A stretch of DNA of 13,122 bases from contig JARJMV020000011.1 of NCBI GenBank assembly GCA_029335935.2, positions 1 to 13,122 on the forward strand, given 5' to 3'. The notes beneath the pieces are model-generated. The model saw only the letters and a program-made list of their open reading frames with translations. It was not told where the DNA came from and did no database searches. This document shows, piece after piece, positions 4,973-6,550 of this stretch (positions are counted from its first letter, which is position 1; every line of letters starts with the position of its first letter). Source of the stretch: a bacterium. Its GTDB lineage: Bacteria; Armatimonadota; Fimbriimonadia; Fimbriimonadales; GBS-DC. A program made the translations under genes and the position numbers.

Positions 4973-4980
4973 CCCCCGCG

Positions 4981-5298
4981 TGGCTTGGACAGTCCTGTCC
5001 AAGCATTTTCGTCGGCGGGGGCGCCGACGCTACCGTGGCTTGGACATTCTTGTCCAAGCGTGGCTGGTCGGCGGGGGCGTTGGCGCGACGCAGGGTGTTC
5101 AGCACGGACAGGACTGTCCGTGCTACCGTGGCTTGGACATTCCTGTCCAAGCATTTTCGTCGTCGAGGGCGTTGGCGCGACGCAGGGTGTTCAGCACGGA
5201 CAGGAATGTCCGTGCTACCGTGGCTTGGACAGTCTTGTCCAAGCATTTTCGTCGTCGAGGGCGTTGGCTCTACGACGCCAAGAAAGGCGTCGCATCTG
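4981..5298. repeat. Tandem array of palindromic repeats, unit about 92 bp
   Basis: This fills the 363-bp gap between the convergent rplA and glycerate kinase genes. Palindrome A (arms GCTTGGACA/TGTCCAAGC, loop of 4) occurs at 4983-5004, 5038-5059, 5131-5152 and 5223-5244. Palindrome B (arms AGCACGGACA/TGTCCGTGCT) occurs at 5101-5124 and 5193-5216. Spacings A2-A3, A3-A4 and B1-B2 are 92-93 bp; the first unit is shorter (55 bp). Between them is a third palindrome, CGTCGGCG-GGGG-CGCCGACG (5010-5029), with decayed versions near 5067, 5158 and 5250. The array ends in another stem, CGACGCC/GGCGTCG (5273-5292). The long open frames over it on both strands arise because the unit lacks stop codons, and I do not regard them as genes. 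No transposase is present in the window. Confidence 0.9.
4983..5009 (+). terminator. Palindrome plus short T-run after rplA, possible terminator
   Basis: The first copy of the repeat palindrome (9-bp arms GCTTGGACA/TGTCCAAGC, 4-nt loop GTCC) starts 10 nt after the rplA stop and is followed by ATTTT. It could act as an intrinsic terminator for the ribosomal operon, though the T-run is short and identical palindromes follow further along. Confidence 0.4.
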
Positions 5299-5335: not shown

Positions 5336-6550
5336 TCAGTGAATGGCAATCGCCGCCGCTCTCTGCAGCGCCTCGGCTGGGGGCAGGTCAGGCGCAATTG
5401 CAGCGCAGGCAACCACATGCACGCTCGGCAGTTTAGCAGTCGCTTCCCAGCCTGCGCCCTTGCGCCCCGTTAGCACAATCACAGGTTTGCCCAGAGCAAC
5501 CGCCTGTTGTATCAGCACGCCGACCCCTTTGCCCATCAGCGTCTGCGCGTCCACTTGTCCCTCACCTGTAATCAGGCAATCGGCTCGGGCGAGGCGTGTG
5601 TCCCAGCCGATGTGTTTCAGGAGCCATGCGATGCCCGACACAATCGGCGCGTGCAGGTAGGCGTGCAGTCCCCCAGCCAAGCCGCCTGCTGCGCCCGCGC
5701 CCAGCTCTGTGCGCAAATCTATTTCTCTGTCGCGCAGAGCAACCGTCGCCAGCTGCTCCAGCCCCTGAGCGAGCGTTTCCACTTGGCTGGGCGTTGCGCC
5801 TTTTTGTGGGGCGTAGACGCGCGCGGCGTCGAGCAGCGTGTTTTGCACATCGGCGCAGAGCATAAGCGGCTTACCCAGCAGAGGGTCGGCGTCGGGTGGA
5901 TGCACGGACTGTAGGTTCAGCAAGCCCTGACCGCCTTGGGGGATGGGGTTCCCTTGCGCGTCGTGCAGTTGGAAACCGAGCGCAGCCAGTGCGCCCGCGC
6001 CGCCGTCAGTGGTCGCCACACCGCCCAGCCCCAGCCAAAGCGCGCGCGTGTCGGGGTGTTGCGCGGCGGCGCGGAGCAGCTCGCCCACCCCGTACGAGGT
6101 CGCCTCCATCGGCGTGAGATCGTCGGAGCGCAGAAGGTGGATGCCTATCGCCTGCGCCGATTCCAACACGGCAACGCCGTCGGGCAGGAGTAGCCATTCC
6201 GCCGTGCGCAGGCGTCCGAGCGCGTCGTGAACTTGTGTCGGGATGCGTTGAGCGTCGGGGAAGTGGTACTGCCAGACATCGAGCCAGCCTGTGCCGCCGT
6301 CGGCAATCGGGCAGAGGTCGAGTTCGTCGGCGGGGACGGCGACGCTACGGGTTGGCGTCTCGTCGGTGGAAGTGGGGCGTTGCGACGCCAAGAATGGCGT
6401 CGCACCTGTGCTTTCGTCGGCGGGGACGCCGACGCTGCGGGGTTGGGGGCGTTCGGCGGAGCGGAGGTTGAGGCTACGCGCGATAATCTCGGTCGCTTCG
6501 ATGGGGGAGAGTGTGCCCTTGTAGGCGGTCGGGGCAACCAGCAGGCGCAT
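5336..6550 (-). CDS. glxK: Glycerate kinase (GlxK/GarK family) with in-frame repeat insertion
   Basis: The 404-residue product phosphorylates glycerate in the cytoplasm, feeding it into lower glycolysis; whether 2- or 3-phosphoglycerate is formed cannot be told from sequence. Family signatures are APTAYKGTLSPIEA at the N-terminus, LDLCPIADGGTG, GLGGVATTDGGAGALAALGF and ADCLITGEGQVDAQTLMGKG. The protein is longer than the usual roughly 370-380 residues because about 44 residues (33-76) are inserted between the first helix and LDLCPIADGG. That insert is Pro/Ser/Thr-rich, contains RSVGVPADE and RSVAVPADE, and is encoded by the repeat family seen at 4981-5298. Otherwise the reading frame is intact. 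ATG 6550 lies 3 nt after the RDD gene stop, with a GGAG Shine-Dalgarno sequence. Last gene of the minus-strand set. Confidence 0.92.
   Translation of the reverse strand: MRLLVAPTAYKGTLSPIEATEIIARSLNLRSAERPQPRSVGVPADESTGATPFLASQRPTSTDETPTRSVAVPADELDLCPIADGGTGWLDVWQYHFPDAQRIPTQVHDALGRLRTAEWLLLPDGVAVLESAQAIGIHLLRSDDLTPMEATSYGVGELLRAAAQHPDTRALWLGLGGVATTDGGAGALAALGFQLHDAQGNPIPQGGQGLLNLQSVHPPDADPLLGKPLMLCADVQNTLLDAARVYAPQKGATPSQVETLAQGLEQLATVALRDREIDLRTELGAGAAGGLAGGLHAYLHAPIVSGIAWLLKHIGWDTRLARADCLITGEGQVDAQTLMGKGVGVLIQQAVALGKPVIVLTGRKGAGWEATAKLPSVHVVACAAIAPDLPPAEALQRAAAIAIH
6323..6454. repeat. Palindromic repeat element inserted in the glycerate kinase coding sequence
   Basis: The element contains CGTCGGCG-GGGA-CGCCGACG at 6415-6434, an imperfect copy (CGTCGGCG-GGGA-CGGCGACG) at 6325-6344, and the stem GCGACGCC-AAGAAT-GGCGTCGC at 6382-6403. 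All have counterparts in the intergenic array (5010-5029 and 5273-5292). The two outer copies are 90 bp apart, close to the array period. On the minus strand it reads SVGVPADE, equivalent to the SVGAPADE read from the array in the same frame. Boundaries are approximate, set where glycerate kinase similarity resumes. Confidence 0.8.

Follow-up and report, generated by a model that had tools for sequence, protein, structure and literature searches.

How does a block of palindromic sequence come to lie, in frame and free of stop codons, inside a glycerate kinase (GK) gene, and how is it kept there? The window analysed, 13,122 nucleotides long, is the complete contig C96 of a draft genome (2.03 Mb, 335 contigs, 85.5% complete; hereafter the focal genome), which we compared with genomes of the same genus, one of which (G011) is a single contig, all others being drafts of 20 to 440 contigs. 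Our preferred answer, to which we assign a probability of roughly 85%, is that the insert consists of arrayed GTAG-tagged repetitive extragenic palindromes (REPs) plus one unit of another family, B, and that it entered in frame, grew by unit addition and is close to neutral in a loop of the protein.

Around the insert the gene is intact, as originally predicted. Membership in the glycerate kinase family PF02595 is indicated by profile scores above cut-off, conserved motifs and fold: the protein matches PF02595 over residues 71-393 (293 bits, Pfam) and TIGR00045 with 264 bits against a cut-off of 168 (NCBIfam), and matches PDB entries 3cwc and 1to6 both by sequence and by fold (TM-scores of the AlphaFold2 model, by target, 0.74-0.82). 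Only one GK gene copy was found in the focal genome. The N-terminal strand and helix, including the invariant K11, are conserved and precede the insert; because residues 1-24 are conserved, we ruled out that the insert lies upstream of the true GK start. The features concerned are as follows.

5336..6550, minus strand: glycerate kinase gene (PF02595/TIGR00045), 404 aa, host of the insert
6323..6477 (about), minus strand: in-frame palindrome array, residues about 25-76, with three A units (one degenerate) and one B unit
6325..6348 (core 6325-6344), minus strand: A unit 1, GTAG plus CGTCGCCG-TCCC-CGCCGACG with one mismatch, coding for SVAVPADE
6382..6403, minus strand: B unit, GCGACGCC-ATTCTT-GGCGTCGC, within TGATPFLASQ
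6415..6438 (core 6415-6434), minus strand: A unit 2, GCAG plus a perfect 8-bp stem with a 4-nt loop, coding for SVGVPADE
6450..6477, minus strand: degenerate third A unit, identified by alignment to the A consensus, starting with GTAG and coding for SLNLRSAER
4980..5298, unstranded: intergenic array of four C units (GTGG-CTTGGACA..TGTCCAAG), two C2 units (GTAG-CACGGACA..TGTCCGTG, minus strand), one A unit (minus strand) and one B-like unit

The GK insert is a mosaic of three A units and one B unit, not a single element. It is built of the same kinds of palindrome as the intergenic array, where an A unit and a B-like unit are located, and the agreement in translated frame between SVGVPADE in GK and SVGAPADE in the intergenic A copy (5010-5033) noted in the original prediction is correct. 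The extent first proposed, 6323..6454 or about 44 residues, stands at its start and falls short at its end: the array reaches about 6477, because 6450-6477 can be aligned to A as a third, degenerate unit, with a score equalled in 2 of 2000 shuffles. For TSTDETPTR, which separates B from A unit 1, the alignment to A was no better than expected by chance (312 of 2000 shuffles scored as high). Against the focal genome, the insert gave 76 BLASTN matches at E ≤ 10, itself included, the best non-self match having an E-value of 2e-18.

Unit A is a repeated family, whose distribution across the genus is broad yet very uneven. Searching with a 24-base A pattern at up to three mismatches returned 92 matches in the focal genome and between 0 and 189 across 13 genus genomes, 12 of which were positive (G009 189, G012 135, G003 103, G007 59, G010 58, G002 51, G001 25, G005 10, G006 2, G004 2, G011 1, G008 0), while the reversed pattern, used as a control, returned none in any of the 13. 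Tags were counted in 137,739 bases of focal-genome DNA (with overlaps) chosen for matching the insert. There, an exact GTAG directly preceded the better arm at 36 of 46 perfect-arm A sites, and GTAG or GTGG was found at 34 of 36 C sites and 8 of 8 C2 sites. Typical A and C copies have a stem of 8 and a loop of 4, within the GTAG-REP ranges of 5-13 bp and 2-20. B lacks the GTAG-REP tag at most sites (GTNG at only 2 of 11, GGTG at 6 of 11), and may therefore belong to another class than A and C. Neighbouring A units within 100 bp were direct in 25 of 25 cases, spaced 34-38 nt from start to start in 16 of the 25 and most commonly 36; C-C neighbours were direct in 15 of 17, and mixed A/C/C2 pairs occurred as HH, TT and HT. 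A further family, D, consists of a long dyad (about 92 bp) with no relation to A. At E ≤ 0.001, with at most 40 candidates scored per genome and the two strands of one dyad possibly counted separately, D matches among those scored were found in 12 of 13 genomes (G012 78, G010 75, G011 75, G007 72, G008 60, G002 34, G004 28, G006 14, G009 10, G001 5, G003 2, focal genome 1, G005 0).

These properties bear on the closest known parallel, for which the original prediction had named the palindromic elements of Rickettsia; A and C are a better fit to the GTAG-REP class. Like GTAG-REPs as described by Di Nocera et al. 2013 (PMC3733652), A and C units combine an unpaired GTAG or GTGG at one end, an 8-bp stem, a short loop, high copy number and clustering. 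According to the same paper, intragenic GTAG-REPs are known, including in DNA-repair and tRNA-synthetase genes, two Xanthomonas recB genes carry REPs that differ although their positions nearly coincide, and one suggested reason why intragenic copies may be neutral is a location in flexible linkers or loops. In contrast to the tendency reported there, with HH and TT dimers common and head-tail pairs under-represented, the A-A pairs here are all direct, and the account given there also differs from our data in that several families share loops, arrays grow in tandem within coding sequence and a transposase-like ORF lies in frame with a host gene, CarB. Rickettsia palindromic elements (RPEs; Ogata 2000, 2002, as cited in PMC10969869) are likewise palindromic repeats lying in frame within unrelated genes and apparently tolerated. 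On size and frame description, the terms in which we compared the two, RPEs are about 150 bp long with a conserved peptide, whereas the units here measure 20-30 bp and are read in several frames. R. conorii RPEs are described as CGTC-tagged in PMC3733652, but the CGTC within A belongs to the stem and is not an unpaired tag.

Comparison with relatives showed that the segment is absent from part of the genus. A search of 41 genomes yielded 16 with a protein match, namely 14 GK genes or pieces and two matches to modules only (G003, G012), and the GK N-terminus was readable in 8 of the 13 genus genomes. The insertion point (site 1) is empty in three of these eight, G011, G001 and G008 (e.g. IIADNLVGEADLCPIADGG), and holds a forward A/B array in the focal genome, a forward A/C array in G009, two A units in opposite orientation in G007 (where the contig ends soon after) and family D in G010. 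In G004, a 72-nt piece aligns to D with a score equalled in 1 of 2000 shuffles, and is probably a decayed D. Genome-wide abundance of D is no guide to occupation, G011 and G008 being empty at site 1 despite their many D matches. Among database proteins, P0001 and P0002 carry longer A arrays at this site, P0003 carries D, P0004, 462 aa long, contains other repeats, P0011 has a forward module alongside a reversed A, and one module lies inside a linker of native length in P0006, P0009 and P0010. More generally, the linker before PIADGG in P0005-P0010 has native length and reads SVGVPADE or near, reflecting either one old A unit or a chance likeness. In the metagenome GKs P0031, P0034-P0038, P0062 and P0068, yet another family occupies a second loop, which follows residue 156 in P0025 numbering; the peptide of this family had 74 matches in G008, 44 in G001 and 1 in the focal genome at E ≤ 0.01.

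The occurrence of A arrays at the same site in the close relatives G009, P0001 and P0002 suggests that the array entered GK before these and the focal gene split, and has changed since. This sits poorly, as does its mosaic structure, with the originally proposed single and recent insertion; that the insert is in frame and stop-free and derives from genome-wide palindromic repeats holds, given its copies, the empty sites, predicted disorder and a host gene under selection. D and reversed A at site 1 are, judged by their sequences, separate entries. A GK tree was built from 60 of 73 aligned proteins (the focal protein plus P0001-P0072, keeping those of at least 340 aa, up to P0060) after removing the columns of the insert, linker and site-2 loop, with labels assigned by eye and single-module rows scored as unoccupied. 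It requires at least seven changes between occupied and unoccupied and at least nine between family labels, gain and loss being indistinguishable, and 9 of its 57 inner branches are open. A single insertion in an ancestor of the genus, lost or replaced afterwards, could be argued from this blindness to gain versus loss, from the partly unresolved clade of the focal gene, and from P0006, P0009, P0010 and perhaps P0005 and P0007, whose native-length linkers hold one module or something like it. However, forward A, reversed A and D, being either unrelated or inverted relative to each other, are hard to trace back to one insertion through decay, which makes this history rather unlikely compared with repeated independent insertion at one loop.

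Structure prediction places the insert in a disordered loop of an otherwise confident fold. The AlphaFold2 model, based on an alignment of 70 of 121 available proteins, has a mean pLDDT of 90.8 and a pTM of 0.86, while most of the insert lies below a pLDDT of 50 (residues 31-37 and 41-65). Outside the insert, dN/dS was estimated for nine of ten extracted genes (G007 being excluded as a fragment), giving 0.34 for the focal gene against G009 (83 codons), 0.22 against G010 (353) and 0.18 against G004 (353), compared with 0.26 (351 codons) for the empty pair G011-G008, all to be read with synonymous differences close to saturation in many pairs. These ratios indicate that GK outside the insert is under purifying selection, which speaks to selection on the gene and not to activity; that the enzyme is active despite the array is something we infer.

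An insert maintained under these conditions might also be useful, with palindromes kept as linkers or RNA hairpins that adjust enzyme or mRNA and with the loops acting as selected landing sites. The repeated use of the same loops by unrelated families would be expected under this scenario, as would the stability of the predicted RNA fold of 6317-6470, which exceeds that of shuffled sequences (z = -3.35; none of 200 shuffles equally stable). Nevertheless, length, family, orientation and frame all vary between species, intact genes exist with empty sites, dN/dS is alike in inserted and empty genes, and a permissive loop accounts for the recurrence without benefit, so that we regard a selected function as improbable. 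Near-neutrality, our preferred reading, can be related to the coding properties of A: the array would persist because five of its six frames are stop-free and four are found in identified genes as linker (SVGVPADE, VASASPPT, VGGDADAT and SSAGTPTLR). These frames would yield a short, probably disordered linker whose insertion into a surface loop or between domains would be close to neutral. Neither the forward A frame in which the tag's TAG is a stop nor the arginine-rich reverse frame was seen in the identified genes examined.

Such units are also found in other coding genes, in IspE and MutL within the focal genome and in more genes among its relatives. A codon-usage screen for intragenic copies listed five cases in four distinct genes, and was overly strict, missing the G003 MutL and a DUF2201 protein. 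We take the host genes of the inserts to be essential. One case in the focal genome is the following.

G000:C270 129-1082, minus strand: IspE with in-frame A units (L015; TIGR00154, 146 bits against a cut-off of 138.7)

In this protein the A units sit between GADVAFF and CALATGKGE, and the frame terminates early, diverging from relatives about 129 bases from the contig end. In the IspE alignment, which includes sequence from 7 of 11 loci, two ispE contigs of G009 (L217, L218) hold one clear unit versus six at the same position, a difference that points to variation among strains or to a bin holding two closely related species. In the G010 protein, two other positions hold D-type inserts. The MutL linker carries A, C or D units recognisable by eye in 5 of the 11 genomes in which it is partly visible (G012, G003, focal genome, G007, G010); in G012 they lie between the DNA_mis_repair (10-126) and MutL_C (309-450) domains. 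The G008 MutL linker holds a repeat, AGETPAHP. In G007, MetG reads A as VASASPPT and VASASSPT between Anticodon_3 (398-525) and tRNA_bind (577-668), in a linker comparison that covered 11 of 12 loci, the pattern having missed G008, and a DUF2201 protein has four VGGDADAT-type units within the stretch matched by DUF2201_N. A focal-genome ORF with five SVGVPPT modules (L122) resembles FtsQ by eye only, matching no Pfam or NCBIfam profile, and was not accepted as such; a 1062-aa ORF of G003 was likewise left unnamed.

At some insertions the gene may be broken or the assembly faulty, since the halves of a zinc alcohol dehydrogenase in G009 (L123, contig C7) lie in different frames on the two sides of a module array. 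A zinc alcohol dehydrogenase contig of the focal genome (L094, G000:C79) ends in a module array. MutL of G004 (L147, contig C9) is in two frames with the break within the linker, which may be a real frameshift or an assembly error. These split genes, along with draft contigs ending in such repeats (for example focal C79, G010 C26 and G007 C234), are what one would expect if the GK insert itself were an artefact of misjoined repeats, or if the GK gene were dead. The insert lies mid-contig, though, other assemblies contain arrays like it (P0001, P0002, G009), and the gene is open for 404 codons and under purifying selection, leaving either possibility very remote. Neither conservation of the segment in distant glycerate kinases nor a lack of other copies in the genome, the two results that would have spoken against a repeat-derived insert, turned up.

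As to what could have moved the units, Y1_Tnp matches were found in each of the 13 genomes, one or two per genome, and three loci are relevant here.

G000:C261 2020-2952, plus strand: Y1/IS200-like ORF with a C-terminal sigma-70-like part (L073; NCBIfam)
G007:C166 1697-3136, plus strand: TetR regulator and RAYT-like ORF in one open frame of 479 aa, with GTAG/GTGG palindromes on both sides (L092)
G010:C26 428-3391, minus strand: C-terminal part of CarB and RAYT-like ORF in one open frame of 988 aa, with palindromes on both sides (L212)

The first, the sole Y1 match found in the focal genome, has no member of the tested palindrome families and no tagged palindrome nearby, so that no palindrome-adjoining RAYT was located in that genome; the cognate, repeat-flanked RAYT expected of a GTAG-REP was not found there for A, and it is other families that flank the RAYT-like ORFs of G007 and G010. 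Among 14 Y1 loci checked for tagged palindromes, only the G007 locus was positive (six palindromes); one (L070) had a single weak A match with three errors. Four further loci comprised two with unrelated tagged palindromes (L213, L215), one with none (L214) and the CarB case of G010. At the latter, four B-type units lie 3' of the RAYT-like ORF and other palindromes 5', CarB contains two further D-type inserts, and the contig ends at the 5' palindromes, leaving the N-terminal junction out of view; the rest of G010 yielded no more of CarB than an N-terminal piece on a different contig. Both RAYT-like ORFs resemble the REPtron/RAYT arrangement in being flanked by palindromes, GTAG/GTGG-tagged in G007 and B-type on the 3' side in G010, and differ from it in sharing an open frame with a host gene, the G007 locus being in effect a REPtron joined to the end of a gene; they score 73 and 70 bits, respectively, under the NCBIfam cut-off of 80. 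In the apparently complete CarB ORF of G012, A units occupy the point matching the G010 RAYT-like ORF, and a stretch of 21 residues there shares 57% identity with the end of the RAYT (two-sequence comparison, E = 5e-6). Because palindrome-flanked RAYT-like ORFs exist in G007 and G010, together with this RAYT-resembling stretch, REP transposition is plausible in the genus; for A, we infer it.

The array in GK could then have arisen in four steps. A unit enters the loop that connects helix 1 to the strand preceding the PIADGG motif, or a linker in other hosts, as the coexistence of empty and filled sites shows, the agent presumably being a RAYT-type transposase. Stop-free frames then allow translation to continue, which is likewise shown. 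Direct copies would then multiply, possibly by slippage or recombination between them, a growth visible by comparison of one module in P0006 with five in P0001, and of one unit with six in ispE. Finally, units would decay into ordinary linker, as the shuffle comparisons suggest for the first unit of the focal gene and for G004.

We found no paper on palindromic repeats of Fimbriimonadales or repetitive extragenic palindromes of Armatimonadetes in the open-licence PMC literature, and "Armatimonad-" is absent from the main text of PMC3733652. Within the scope of these searches, the new points are the host group, which is poorly known and uncultured, the occupation of the same loops by families that bear no relation to one another, the lengthening of arrays by tandem units inside coding sequence, and the open frame shared by a RAYT-like ORF and CarB. 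More tentatively, and with the odds against it, loops and linkers of housekeeping proteins in this genus might serve palindromic elements as long-term landing pads, and the element could even be carried along with the gene for its transposase as an in-frame part of a host protein; if true, this would amount to an intein-like lifestyle without splicing. At single places in central enzymes, this genus offers a graded series of empty sites, single modules, long arrays, decayed remnants and unrelated families, which makes the conversion of selfish DNA into protein sequence directly testable. It also carries a warning: mobile DNA, and not adaptation, may be the source of linker length and disorder in proteins of this kind.
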